A stretch of 64,000 nucleotides of DNA from Deltaproteobacteria bacterium (GTDB lineage: Bacteria > Desulfobacterota > Dissulfuribacteria > Dissulfuribacterales > QOAL01): positions 1-64,000 of the forward strand of contig JALWNK010000073.1 in assembly GCA_026995935.1 (NCBI GenBank). Reading direction: 5' to 3'. A model generated the notes under the pieces. The model was not told the DNA's origin. It saw nothing but the letters and a program-made list of their open reading frames with translations, and made no database searches. Both the position numbers and the translations under genes were made by a program. This document shows, piece after piece, positions 39,494 to 44,392 of this stretch (within the stretch, counting starts at the first letter, position 1; every line of letters begins with the position of its first letter).

Positions 39494-39919
39494 ATGAATG
39501 TTTCCTCCTTCCATATCCAGCATATGATAAAGGCCTACGGTCAGAGATTGGGAAGGGGAAGTCTTGCAAGAATGAAGCTGGCGAGGGCGGGAAAACCATC
39601 TCCCGACACAATAGAAATTTCTCCAGAGGCAAAAAAGAAACAGTTCATTCATGAAATAGCCAGTGATCTTGTTGACAGGGTCAAAACCCAGGCCAAGGGC
39701 CAGTGGCAAGGGGACATTGAAGAGGCACTGTTTGCGAAAATAGGGGAAAAATTTAAGGAAAATATTGAAATAATACCACAAAAAAACAGGAATTCTGGAT
39801 TCAAGTTTAAGGTCTTGGACAGCGACTCTAAGGAAAAGATCGAAGAGTTGTCCTTTGAGGATCTCAAGTCTATAATAGATAGCCTCAATGACGACTACGA
39901 AAATGGAGAAACAAAATGA
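39494..39919 (+). CDS. DVU0524-like FlgM-associated protein
   Basis: A 141-aa protein of the small family seen beside flgM in Desulfobacterota. The opening VSSFHIQHMIKAYGQRLGRG and the DTIEISPEAKKKQF segment near residue 40 are characteristic; the latter resembles the D-x-V-x-x-S motif shared by FlgM-like proteins. The rest is charged and helical, ending in ELSFEDLKSIIDSLNDDYE. Function unknown, perhaps a flagellar regulator or chaperone. AGGACGGG precedes the ATG. Its stop overlaps the flgM start (ATGA). Confidence 0.8.
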   Translation: MNVSSFHIQHMIKAYGQRLGRGSLARMKLARAGKPSPDTIEISPEAKKKQFIHEIASDLVDRVKTQAKGQWQGDIEEALFAKIGEKFKENIEIIPQKNRNSGFKFKVLDSDSKEKIEELSFEDLKSIIDSLNDDYENGETK

Positions 39920-40230
39920 AAATAGGTGATCAGAATCACGGGCTTCAGATAGAGAAATATCTCAATACCCAGGCGGTGGGCAATAAAACCGAAGGTCAAC
40001 AGGACGCCAACAAGATTGATCAGAAATCGCAAGTAAAGACCGATACGGTTGAGCTTTCTTCACAGTCAAAACTACTTAACAAGGTCTCAGACACCATGAA
40101 GACCCATGAGCCCCAGAGGGCTGAAAAGATAGAGATGATAAAGGAACAGGTACAAAACGGAACCTACAATGTGGATGCAGAAAAGGTAGCAAATGCAATG
40201 TTAAAGGACCTCATTAAGGATCTGGGTTAA
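39916..40230 (+). CDS. flgM: Anti-sigma-28 factor FlgM
   Basis: Binds sigma-28 (FliA) and holds back late flagellar genes until it is exported through the completed hook-basal body. At 104 aa it is normal in length. The N-terminal half is disordered and polar; the C-terminal half has the family pattern DTVELSSQSKLLNKV near residue 52 and RAEKIEMIKEQVQNGTYNVDAEKVANAML, the sigma-binding helices. It overlaps the upstream gene by 4 bases and is followed by a terminator. Confidence 0.92.
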   Translation: MKIGDQNHGLQIEKYLNTQAVGNKTEGQQDANKIDQKSQVKTDTVELSSQSKLLNKVSDTMKTHEPQRAEKIEMIKEQVQNGTYNVDAEKVANAMLKDLIKDLG

Positions 40231-40459: not shown

Positions 40460-40861
40460 CTAATCAATACCATCGTCAGCGGGCAGGGTAGAGGAATGAT
40501 GGTGAATTATCCGCCACATCCCGTCTCCTTCTTTTTTCCATACAAAAGTAAAGCGTGCCCTTATTGTGGCCAGGGATCCGTCTTTAGTATCAAGAATGAA
40601 ATCATAGAAACCACTTTGGAGATAGGCCTCTTCACTCAAAGGCTGCACCACATCCTGAATTTTCTTGCATACCGGGGCATTTTTAAAAAAATGCTTAAAA
40701 TAACTCCTGACACCACTTTTCCCTTGTTTAAAATCGGAAGATATAGTTGGGAGAAATGTGGCCTCCTCACTATATAAATAAAGGATACCTTCAACATCCA
40801 GTTCCTTTACTGCATGAACCCACTTAAAAAAATTATCATAAGCTATCTTTGAAAAATCCAT
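40460..40861 (-). CDS. SnoaL-like/DUF4440 NTF2-fold protein
   Basis: A 133-aa single-domain protein with the NTF2-like pattern: NFFKWVHAVKELDVEGILYLYSEEATFLPT at the start, GKSGVRSYFKHFF in the middle, and ATIRARFTFVWKKEGDGMWRIIHHHSS at the end, as in calcium/calmodulin kinase II association domain-like and DUF4440 proteins. No catalytic residues can be assigned. A perfect AAGGAGGTAA precedes the ATG, so expression may be high. It has its own promoter overlapped by an inverted repeat. Confidence 0.78.
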   Translation of the reverse strand: MDFSKIAYDNFFKWVHAVKELDVEGILYLYSEEATFLPTISSDFKQGKSGVRSYFKHFFKNAPVCKKIQDVVQPLSEEAYLQSGFYDFILDTKDGSLATIRARFTFVWKKEGDGMWRIIHHHSSTLPADDGID

Positions 40862-41060: not shown

Positions 41061-42101
41061 CTAAAGTTTTGAAAGCCTGTTGATCTTGGAGTTTATCTCA
41101 GCGGCGTAGTGCACCTGCTCCTTTATCTGGGTAAGAGAGTCCTTAAGCATCTCTTTGGACACCCCATCTTCTGTCAAAAGATCAAGCAACAAGAGTTCTA
41201 TCTTGCCCATCATTATTTGAAGCGGTTGATTAAGCTGATGTGTCGAAGAACCTATGGCTGATAGCACATCTTTCACCTTACGCCCTGAAAACTCATGGGA
41301 ATCCTTTGTTGGGCCCTCATCTTGCCCCCATATTGCCCTGACTATGCGTGAAAGGTCTGCCTTGCCGTTAAAGCAAAGGGAGAGCTCTATGTCCTTAAAT
41401 TTAAGATCAATTCTGTTTTTTAATTTCCGATTAATTTGATGAAAGTTAACCTTTTGTTTTATTGTATCAAGTTGAGATTTTTCTGCTATTAAACAGTCTG
41501 AGGCGTGCGAGGTCTCTGGATCCCGGGATATCTTAAAAAACCCCTTTAGCTCTTTAAGGATGATTGATGCTATGCTCTCACTTGCAATTAGACATAATCT
41601 TGGTTTTTCAGTCTCTTCTCCCCTTGTTTGGGGGAGTAATTGGCATCTTTCATCCCTCTCGAGATCCCTCTTGAGCTCCAGTATCAGGTCATTGACTTTT
41701 GGGCACTCACCGGGCCATACACTAACCACACCTATTGACACAGGAATCGGAATGTTTTCTATAGAGTCAATTTGTGAAATTTTTTTCTTGATCCTGTGGG
41801 CTGCGCTTTCACCGCCTGCTTCATGGGTATGGGGCAAGATAGCGGCAAGGGAGTCGTCACTTAGCAGATATACACTATCGCAGTGTCTTAATTCCTCGCT
41901 AATGCACTGGTATAGGTTTTTGAGGTAACTTTCCTTGGAGGCGTTATTTTTTAAAACAGGCTTAATAAGAAGGAAGGTCGTCTTATGACCGTAGCGCTCT
42001 ACCCTTGCAAGCTCCTTTTGGACGCCTATAAAAAATTCACGCGGTCCTTGAATAAACCCTTGCTGAAAATCCTGGAAATTAATGGCTTGGTTTAAACCCA
42101 T
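41061..42101 (-). CDS. Degenerate GGDEF domain fused to a lone histidine-kinase H-box domain
   Basis: A 346-aa protein with an unusual layout. Residues about 20-155 follow a GGDEF domain (LARVERYGHKTTFLLI, SDDSLAAILPHTHEAGGESAAHRIKKKI, PVSIGVVSVWP), but SDDS replaces GGDEF, so no cyclase activity is expected. The middle (about 165-260) is unclassified. Residues 275-346 are a HisKA-like dimerisation helix pair with H288 in SSTHQLNQPLQIMMGKIELL, the HxLNQPL type of H-box. The protein stops there: no HATPase domain exists. It is 44 bases downstream of a complete PAS kinase, which might phosphorylate it. Confidence 0.72.
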   Translation of the reverse strand: MGLNQAINFQDFQQGFIQGPREFFIGVQKELARVERYGHKTTFLLIKPVLKNNASKESYLKNLYQCISEELRHCDSVYLLSDDSLAAILPHTHEAGGESAAHRIKKKISQIDSIENIPIPVSIGVVSVWPGECPKVNDLILELKRDLERDERCQLLPQTRGEETEKPRLCLIASESIASIILKELKGFFKISRDPETSHASDCLIAEKSQLDTIKQKVNFHQINRKLKNRIDLKFKDIELSLCFNGKADLSRIVRAIWGQDEGPTKDSHEFSGRKVKDVLSAIGSSTHQLNQPLQIMMGKIELLLLDLLTEDGVSKEMLKDSLTQIKEQVHYAAEINSKINRLSKL

Positions 42102-42145
42102 CTTACACCGCTTTTTTTATTTCTATCGGTGTATTTTTCAGAACC

Positions 42146-43273
42146 TTAAGCCCTTGACTCAGTAATATTCCAATCTTGCCGATCTGACTTATTGGCCTTT
42201 GGAATTATGAAGCTGAAAACAGCCCCATGCCTTGGCGGTCTTTTGTTTTTGACCCAAACCTTCCCACCATGGGCCTCGATGATGGTTTTTACAATAGCAA
42301 GGCCAATACCCGTGCCTTCTACGTCCTCCGAGTAATTGGCCCTGTAAAAGGGGTCGAAAATATAGGGCAGGTCTTCCTCTTTTATTCCAGGCCCCGAATC
42401 TTCTACCACACACAGTATGGAATCATCCATGTCTCGGCAGGAAATGTCTATTTCAGAACCAGGTGGTGAATATTTTATGGCATTGTCAAGCAGATTGAAC
42501 ATCACCCTTTGGAGCTGGTATTTGTCCACGTAAACAAGGGGGAGGTCTTCCGGAATATCCATCCTTATGGTCATGCCTTTTTCCCTGGCCCTGATTTTTA
42601 TGTCCCCAAGAACCTCACTAATGAGGCTGTGAATGTCGCAAAGTTCCTTGGAGAGGCTTATCTGACCTGCTTCCATTCTAACAATGTCCAAGAAACTCTT
42701 TATGTACTTATCAACCTTTTTTATTTCCTTTATAATGGTATCCAGATACTGGATCTGCTTGTCGTTTAGCTTCCCTGCCTTTCCTTCCCTGAGCCTGAGT
42801 AGCAGCCCCCCTGCAATGGCCAGGGGCCCTTTGAGGTCGTGGGCGAACATGGAAATAAGTACGCGCCGGTGTTGTTCGAGCTTCTTTTCATTGGTTATTT
42901 CCCTGAATATTGCTATTGCGCCTTTTAGTTGCGAATCCTTTACAAGGGGCGCTGATGTATAACATACGGGAATTTCGTGGCCGTTCTTATGGGTTATGGT
43001 GCCCTCCAGATGAACAAATATCTTATCTTCATTATTAGCCAGGGCCCTTTTTCCAACGTCTTTTAAATGACAGGGAATCCCCGGCAACATCTGATGGCAA
43101 TTCTTTCCAAGCACCTCTTCTTTCTTAAACCCGGTAATCTTTTCGGCAGCAGGATTAAACTCCAGAATCTCTTCGTTGTGGTTTACAATTATGAGACCAA
43201 CCGGAAAATTTTCGACAATGAGGTCAAATAACTCTTCCTTTTCAATCTTTTCCTTGCGAAGAGATGGTGACAT
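42146..43273 (-). CDS. Soluble PAS-domain sensor histidine kinase
   Basis: A 375-aa cytosolic kinase. PAS domain at about residues 15-130 (LFDLIVENFPVGLIIVNHNEE, FNPAAEKITGFKKEEVLGKN) with two cysteine/histidine pairs (CHQMLPGIPCH) that could bind a metal or respond to redox. Then HisKA with H145 in SMFAHDLKGPLAIAGG and HATPase_c (VMFNLLDNAIKYSPPG, VEDSGPGIKEEDLPYIFDPF, GTGIGLAIVKTI). No membrane segment. It lies between the Mrp gene (8 bases upstream) and the H-box protein; no response regulator is nearby. Confidence 0.88.
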   Translation of the reverse strand: MSPSLRKEKIEKEELFDLIVENFPVGLIIVNHNEEILEFNPAAEKITGFKKEEVLGKNCHQMLPGIPCHLKDVGKRALANNEDKIFVHLEGTITHKNGHEIPVCYTSAPLVKDSQLKGAIAIFREITNEKKLEQHRRVLISMFAHDLKGPLAIAGGLLLRLREGKAGKLNDKQIQYLDTIIKEIKKVDKYIKSFLDIVRMEAGQISLSKELCDIHSLISEVLGDIKIRAREKGMTIRMDIPEDLPLVYVDKYQLQRVMFNLLDNAIKYSPPGSEIDISCRDMDDSILCVVEDSGPGIKEEDLPYIFDPFYRANYSEDVEGTGIGLAIVKTIIEAHGGKVWVKNKRPPRHGAVFSFIIPKANKSDRQDWNITESRA

Positions 43274-43281
43274 GGCAAGCG

Positions 43282-44349
43282 TCAGGCCTCCCTGCCTTTT
43301 CTGTTCTTTTCCACAAGTTTCACAACCCGGTCGGCAAGTTCAAAAAAGGGGCTGGATGCCTCGCTCTCCTCAAGGGCCACTGGTCGGCCCTCATCCCCAC
43401 CCAGCCTTATCTCCGGTTCAATGGGGATTTTTGCAAGAAGTGGCAGTTTAAAGGCCCTTGCCATCTTTTCACCTCCACCACTTCCAAAGATGTCCATAAC
43501 CTCTTCCCTTCCAGGAACCTTAAGATAGGACATATTCTCAACTATCCCTAGGATGGGAATCTGGTTTTTTAGAAAAAGGCCAACCGATCTCCGCACGTCA
43601 GAAAGGGCCACCTTTTGAGGAGTGGTGACGATTATTACGCCCTTGATGGGGATGGTGGTTGCAACGGTAAGTGGAGCATCTCCTGTCCCGGGAGGAAGAT
43701 CCACAATTAGATAATCAAGTTCTCCCCAGGCAACATGCCCAAGAAATTCCTTTATGGCCTTGTTTACAAGGGGTCCCCTCCAGACTATAGGGGTCCCCTC
43801 TCCTGCCAAGGTGCCAGTGGACATCATCTTTATTCCATATTTTTCAAGGGGAAAGAGCATGCCCCTGGAACCCAATGGCCTCTCCTTGATTCCAAGCATT
43901 ATGGGAATATCTGGTCCGTGCATGTCGGCATCAAGGATCCCCACCTTGTACCCCCTTTTGGCAAGGGCCGCTGCAAGGTTGACAGAAACGGTGCTCTTGC
44001 CTACCCCACCCTTGCCGCTGGCAACTGCTATAACGTTTTTAACCCCCTTCATTCCTTCCATTTCAGAAGGCTCCTGACCAAAGAGCCTGGCCCTTTCTGC
44101 CGAGGTCATGGTGGTTAGCACAACGCTCACTTCCTGAACGCCAGGGATGGTCGAAACCGCCTTTTTTACGTCTTCCTTGATCTTTTCCTTAAGAGGACAG
44201 CCCGCCATGGTAAGGGCAATGGTTACCCGTACATTTGGACCTGCTATCTCCACGTCTTTCACCATTCCAAGATCAACCAATGACCTGTTAAGCTCAGGAT
44301 CATTCACCTGCCTCAGTGCATTAATTACTTGCTCCCTGGTAACAGACAT
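43282..44349 (-). CDS. Mrp/NBP35-family Fe-S carrier ATPase
   Basis: P-loop ATPase (355 aa) thought to carry and deliver [4Fe-4S] clusters. N-terminal DUF59/MIP18 domain (residues 1-80, VNDPELNRSLVDLGMVKDVEI, TMAGCPLKEKI), then AVASGKGGVGKSTVSVNLA, LDADMHGPDIPIMLG, IVDLPPGTGDAPLTV and IVENMSYL. The family's C-terminal CxxC is not visible; after ENMSYLK comes VPGREEVMDIFGSGGGEKMA rather than CPHCG, as in some Mrp proteins. ATG at 44349 is chosen since GGAG lies at good distance; a TTG five codons upstream is possible. Confidence 0.9.
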   Translation of the reverse strand: MSVTREQVINALRQVNDPELNRSLVDLGMVKDVEIAGPNVRVTIALTMAGCPLKEKIKEDVKKAVSTIPGVQEVSVVLTTMTSAERARLFGQEPSEMEGMKGVKNVIAVASGKGGVGKSTVSVNLAAALAKRGYKVGILDADMHGPDIPIMLGIKERPLGSRGMLFPLEKYGIKMMSTGTLAGEGTPIVWRGPLVNKAIKEFLGHVAWGELDYLIVDLPPGTGDAPLTVATTIPIKGVIIVTTPQKVALSDVRRSVGLFLKNQIPILGIVENMSYLKVPGREEVMDIFGSGGGEKMARAFKLPLLAKIPIEPEIRLGGDEGRPVALEESEASSPFFELADRVVKLVEKNRKGREA

Positions 44350-44392
44350 TTTCACAGTCTCCAAAGCGTCTTATATTTATGGTAACCTTAAC

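Follow-up and report, generated by a model that had tools for sequence, protein, structure and literature searches.

The window analysed here is a 64,000-nucleotide stretch of the 81.7-kb contig C73. On its minus strand lies a gene for a protein with an H-box and no ATPase domain (hereafter the H-box protein), which starts 44 nt after the open reading frame of a complete PAS histidine kinase (Table 1). The original prediction described this reading frame, an H-box helix pair with H288, the lack of an HATPase domain and the complete kinase 44 bases before it, all of which are borne out by the ORF list and by Pfam, which reads the kinase as PAS-HisKA-HATPase. It also held that no response regulator is encoded nearby, and a profile search for receiver domains found none on the entire contig. 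The conserved gene order runs Mrp, PAS kinase, a methyltransferase that is not always present, and the H-box gene, facing flgM. In several families, whether or not the PAS kinase is present, the H-box gene is immediately preceded by that of the methyltransferase-like protein (∼220-256 aa, identified by eye; L036-L038, L041-L046, L048). In much of the order, flgM is directly preceded by a gene for a conserved 141-aa protein with no significant Pfam match (39494-39919, plus strand), and a small protein of the SnoaL/CaMKII-association type (40460-40861, minus strand) follows the H-box gene only in the window and in G004 among the genomes compared. A shared flagellar function was considered and rejected: the neighbouring flgM gene, though conserved, is on the other strand and is kept where the H-box gene is lost, and linkage alone proves nothing.

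Table 1. Features of the H-box gene and its surroundings (window positions; residue numbers refer to the H-box protein).
Feature	Position	Strand	Basis
ATPase-less H-box protein, 346 aa	41061..42101	-	ORF; Pfam; 26 orthologues with same C-terminal end; AlphaFold2 model
GGDEF-like domain, residues 20-154, active site lost	41640..42044	-	Pfam GGDEF; Foldseek; profile against DosC chain
Degenerate receiver (pseudo-receiver), residues 165-262	41316..41609	-	Response_reg in 3/26; FrzS profile match
DHp/HisKA hairpin, residues 270-346, extreme C-terminus	41064..41294	-	Pfam HisKA; model helices; pN well below pS
H-box, H288-QLNQPLQ	41217..41240	-	Column counts in 26 orthologues
SDDS, residues 81-84, at GGDE position of active cyclases	41850..41861	-	Alignment
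Candidate I-site RxxD, R72-H-C-D75, starting nine residues ahead of former GGDEF motif	41877..41888	-	Orthologue columns; alignment to DosC RSSD
R103, candidate third I-site residue (PleD R390 position, by spacing)	41793..41795	-	26/26; aligns with AERIR arginine of DosC
R33, probable fourth I-site residue	42003..42005	-	21/26 orthologues
Complete PAS histidine kinase, H-box HDLKGPLAI, upstream, same direction	42146..43273	-	Pfam
Mrp/NUBPL-type Fe-S carrier, first gene of conserved run	43282..44364	-	Pfam; synteny
FlgM anti-sigma-28 factor, conserved convergent neighbour	39916..40230	+	Pfam E 4.8e-18; synteny

The H-box protein is built of a dead GGDEF domain, a pseudo-receiver and a DHp hairpin. 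Pfam matches GGDEF at residues 59-142 (E 6.6e-5) and HisKA at residues 287-346, up to the final residue (E 7e-5), both just under the curated cut-offs, while no HATPase family matches the protein at E ≤ 1 and none is among the Pfam families matched by its 26 complete orthologues. HisKA is matched by 24 of these orthologues and GGDEF by 18, and the middle part matches Response_reg in three (best E 2.3e-5). A profile of the family aligned with GGDEF structures at positions ∼12-145, including the DosC chain (E 2.2e-8), and with receivers at ∼167-276, including the FrzS receiver 2gkg (E 8.9e-7). The AlphaFold2 model (mean pLDDT 75.5) has a GGDEF-type fold followed by a small alpha/beta domain and a pair of long helices (residues 267-309 and 316-345), and its top Foldseek matches are GGDEF domains (best E 2.9e-8). 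The protein had been described as consisting of two domains, which is wrong, as the degenerate receiver at residues ∼165-262 separates the GGDEF-like and H-box parts. With sensor-type GGDEF-like and receiver-like domains ahead of a C-terminal HisKA domain that has a conserved histidine, and with no recognisable HATPase domain, the protein has the make-up of the HisKA-without-HATPase class and lacks the domain that defines a complete histidine kinase.

Matches to the H-box protein were found in 37 of 60 related genomes, which are deltaproteobacterial metagenome-assembled genomes including one labelled SeepSRB2 and one Thermodesulfatator. The 26 complete orthologues, which are related sequences rather than independent observations, come from several families within one order of Thermodesulfobacteriota. 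A longer, HATPase-bearing gene was looked for among the related genomes; instead, the full-length orthologues all terminate at the same position in helix 2, where an invariant I-N-x-K-I-x-R motif is found. When the orthologues are compared, the DHp and GGDEF parts each have a pN well below their pS, this being the sole measure used because dS is saturated between orthologues. Truncation or a pseudogene is rejected on these two observations, and the suggestion that the protein is a designed form incapable of phosphorylating itself is thereby supported. The ATPase-less form is deliberate and conserved across this group of sulfur-cycling bacteria.

It could still be argued that the protein no longer has a function and is what is left of a hybrid histidine kinase in decay, as its middle domain is nearly unrecognisable, several genomes lack the gene, and broken copies occur in G042 and G025, with a further copy in G015 split around a masked stretch. 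We consider this hardly credible, since 26 genomes have an intact, full-length reading frame, and its sharply invariant residues and low pN relative to pS stand against decay; the apparent purifying selection already largely refutes it. The three broken or split copies (L050 in G042, L046 in G025 and L053 in G015) are split or contain a stop, and the split in L053 may stem from assembly or masking.

A closer look at the H-box shows that H288 is invariant in all 26 orthologues, with a mean pairwise identity of 67% across the H-box core. The residue following the histidine is Gln in 22 and Lys in four, and an acid is never present, while Gln occupies both the +4 and the +7 positions in 26 of 26. 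In CrdS the acid at +1 is needed for kinase activity and not for phosphatase activity, so that the E372Q protein has lost the kinase activity but remains a fully active phosphatase, and NtrB E140Q gives the same picture, its ATP-dependent kinase activity being abolished (PMC3510030). On this precedent, the natural Gln or Lys at +1 argues against phosphorylation of H288 from ATP, even by a foreign ATPase domain. It is compatible with Asp-to-His transfer or with phosphatase action.

These residues bear on the original proposal that the neighbouring PAS kinase may phosphorylate the H-box protein in trans, form mixed dimers with it or have it as a decoy. In the genus, and in part of the order, the two genes lie side by side and point the same way, which speaks for a split kinase or mixed dimer served by the ATPase domain of the PAS kinase. 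However, the acid at +1 is missing, the two H-boxes are unlike (HQLNQPLQ against HDLKGPLAI), and the genes occur independently. No orthologue of the PAS kinase reached E 1e-45 in ten genomes in which the H-box gene, or a clear match to it, is present (G019, G020, G025, G026, G029, G033, G039, G041, G044 and G045), these being draft genomes in each of which at most 32 candidates were scored; conversely, four genomes (G011, G031, G038 and G043) hold the kinase and lack the H-box gene. An obligate partnership is not supported, and the PAS kinase is a neighbour of the H-box gene and not its obligate partner. The idea of such a partnership is weakened in all its forms, and trans-phosphorylation by the PAS kinase seems to us very improbable. 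Among the HATPase hits of the window genome, no ATPase-only partner of the split-kinase type was found: the four hits without a HisKA match that were read out are larger complete proteins, and the remainder lie in frames with HisKA hits or in long frames judged by their length only (CheA-like; one of 619 aa), apart from a 50-aa fragment.

The GGDEF domain has lost its active site. As originally predicted, SDDS replaces the motif, residues 81-84 aligning at the GGDE position, so the GG(D/E)EF of a diguanylate cyclase is missing; the motif is kept in 0 of 26 orthologues and its columns are unconserved in the family. That description overlooked a putative c-di-GMP I-site in the same domain. R72, D75 and R103, at the positions contributed by a single subunit, are each conserved in 26 of 26 orthologues, and R33, which from the PleD spacing we take to be the counterpart of PleD R313, in 21 of 26. 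The I-site of GGDEF domains consists of an RxxD motif, a further arginine and an arginine from an adjacent molecule, which in PleD are R359/D362, R390 and R313 (PMC7288161). As a background we examined 30 GGDEF domains from the related genomes, mostly the top-scoring ones of the genomes examined, where the first Arg is present in 26, the Asp in 28 and the third residue, Arg, in 22. The full trio is complete in 19 of the 30, so the fold does not dictate it. Retention of these residues is suggestive of c-di-GMP binding, not proof of it, as they could be partly structural. With its active-site motif lost and RxxD and the third Arg intact, the domain has the look of a receptor for c-di-GMP. There is precedent in SgmT, a histidine kinase whose dead GGDEF domain with RxxD can bind c-di-GMP as its receptor, with ligand binding altering localization only and not phosphotransfer (PMC3509222).

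This precedent also fits a protein without catalytic function, a c-di-GMP-dependent dimer that would sequester a receiver or a kinase and keep its histidine for docking only. The dead GGDEF domains of SgmT and PopA are used for localization (PMC3509222), and pseudo-receivers commonly act through protein contact (PMC12632262). A pure dimerizer would not need an invariant histidine and H-box, however, and we regard a scaffold or decoy as distinctly unlikely.

The H-box protein is not alone in the window genome, which contains 45 HisKA matches at E < 1e-4. Among the proteins read out, three others lack the ATPase: L142 (G000:C40; receiver-PAS-HisKA), L143 (G000:C45; PAS-HisKA) and L144 (G000:C23; DUF4118-HisKA). 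All three end soon after a tail resembling Y-x-x-K-x-Y-x-G-x-x-x-I-x-D-L. A further protein, L146 (G000:C40:11500-15500), has a HisKA domain (HNMNSPLQ) followed by ∼170 residues without a recognisable ATPase and is possibly ChpT/Spo0B-like. Gln at +7 is found in all five of these proteins, counting the H-box protein, compared to a single one among the complete kinases read (about 34). Across the phylum, the pattern H-x-[LFIM]-N-Q-P-L-Q occurs at 48 places in 297 genomes. Of 30 such loci examined, the HisKA-like frames all have 54-94 residues after the histidine, no ATPase and varied inputs, and the others (e.g., L161, L164, L171, L173-L176, L179) are unrelated or chance frames. L080 and L081 (Desulfobacca) and L172 are PAS-HisKA proteins of ∼195 aa without an ATPase that carry HQLNQPLQ, with no acid at +1, as in the family of the H-box protein. 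The control pattern H-E-x-N-Q-P-L-[TA] occurs at 46 places in 148 genomes, and 30 of these loci, sorted by length and motif rather than by HMM so that the split is approximate, comprise about 18 complete kinases, nine short proteins that lack the ATPase and have a comparable tail, two receiver-ended proteins and two ambiguous cases (L191, L196).

In a DHp tree of 107 motif-selected rows and 82 columns, complete kinases and ATPase-less proteins are separated with a single change (SH-aLRT 75; none of 500 shuffles as low), and the 59-row ATPase-less set that includes the family of the H-box protein has an SH-aLRT of 87. A tentative reading, which we think somewhat less probable than its contrary, is that ATPase-less HisKA proteins with Gln at +7 (H-x-x-N-Q-P-L-Q) and freely swapped inputs (receiver, PAS, GAF, membrane and dead GGDEF) form a single lineage in the phylum, both large and old. 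This lineage would provide the phylum's principal stand-alone nodes for phosphotransfer or phosphatase action, with the family of the H-box protein as the c-di-GMP-controlled branch.

For the H-box protein itself, we propose a c-di-GMP-controlled signalling protein that uses no ATP and transfers or removes the phosphate of unlinked receivers, a proposal to which we give about an even chance. The dimeric DHp hairpin would dock phosphorylated receivers that belong to response regulators or hybrid kinases encoded elsewhere, and H288 would accept the phosphoryl group and hand it on, as an Hpt domain does, or help its hydrolysis. The phosphotransfer node suggested in the original prediction is kept as part of this proposal. 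Several observations count for this proposal. H288 is kept in every orthologue while the pseudo-receiver, the least conserved part of the protein, has drifted to a mean identity of 19%. The H-box groups with those of other ATPase-less proteins, apart from complete kinases. A transfer protein also appears to be wanted in the window genome, as Hpt domains occur there only within hybrid kinases and CheA-like frames, a profile search found no stand-alone Hpt, and 13 hybrid kinases, counted by matching contigs and frame lengths, have a C-terminal receiver without an Hpt. Counted against the proposal are the partly structural role that the I-site residues could have, the effect of c-di-GMP in SgmT on localization only, the Gln at +4, which differs from the Asn/Thr of the HisKA phosphatase motif, the absence of the gene from several genomes of the order that retain its neighbours, and the possibility that hybrid kinases may work without an Hpt.

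The main rival is a pure response-regulator phosphatase, in which the c-di-GMP-gated hairpin would only dephosphorylate a receiver through Q292 or H288, and the phosphate would never reside on the protein. The +1 Gln mimics CrdS E372Q (PMC3510030), the +4 Gln is invariant, and this role was proposed for ATPase-less HisKA proteins by Galperin et al. (PMC5847659), who put forward phosphotransfer as well for the archaeal proteins. On the other hand, the established HisKA phosphatase residue at +4 is Asn or Thr and not Gln, and the histidine contributes to HisKA phosphatase activity without being essential for it (PMC12632262), so that invariance of H288 exceeds the need. We therefore favour c-di-GMP-controlled phosphotransfer and consider a phosphatase alone unlikely, though the most serious of the alternatives.

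ATPase-less HisKA proteins make up 3.66% of HisKA proteins in SMART (PMC3591291), and the census papers found offer only conjecture on their role. The family described here, with its natural kinase-dead substitution and predicted ligand site, provides a clean, testable case, and if c-di-GMP gates the protein, the second messenger would be linked directly to His-Asp phosphotransfer, with no kinase in between. Dead-GGDEF receptors have been described, and so, separately, have HisKA proteins that lack the ATPase; in the open-access literature searched (subscription journals being outside its scope), there was no report of an ATPase-less HisKA domain combined with a dead GGDEF domain that keeps its I-site.

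Among characterized systems, the split kinase CheA3/CheA4 likewise places the phosphorylatable histidine on an ATPase-less protein (PMC3591291). It differs in its ATPase-only partner, which was not found here, and in the acid after the histidine and the H-E/D-x-x-N/T motif, which the H-box protein lacks. In ChpT, Spo0B and PhyT a kinase-related DHp hairpin shuttles phosphate between receivers without ATP (PMC3433190, PMC5898713), but these proteins retain a degenerate ATPase-like domain, whereas the H-box protein has none and ends at helix 2. Its own DHp hairpin is seen in the model and its histidine in the column counts, and the hairpin may dimerise and be phosphorylated as theirs are. SgmT of Myxococcus and PopA of Caulobacter resemble the H-box protein in having lost the GGDEF active site, kept RxxD and joined the domain to two-component modules (PMC3509222). 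SgmT, unlike the H-box protein, is a complete kinase with a C-terminal GGDEF domain. PopA, again unlike the H-box protein, is presumably without a DHp. The closest likeness is to the "HisKA, no HATPase" or "possible incomplete histidine kinase" proteins of conjectured function, which likewise have N-terminal inputs, a C-terminal HisKA domain with the conserved histidine and no ATPase (Galperin et al., 2018, PMC5847659; P2CS). Those described are archaeal with PAS or GAF inputs, whereas the H-box protein joins a dead GGDEF domain with a predicted I-site to a pseudo-receiver and has lost the +1 acid throughout its family.
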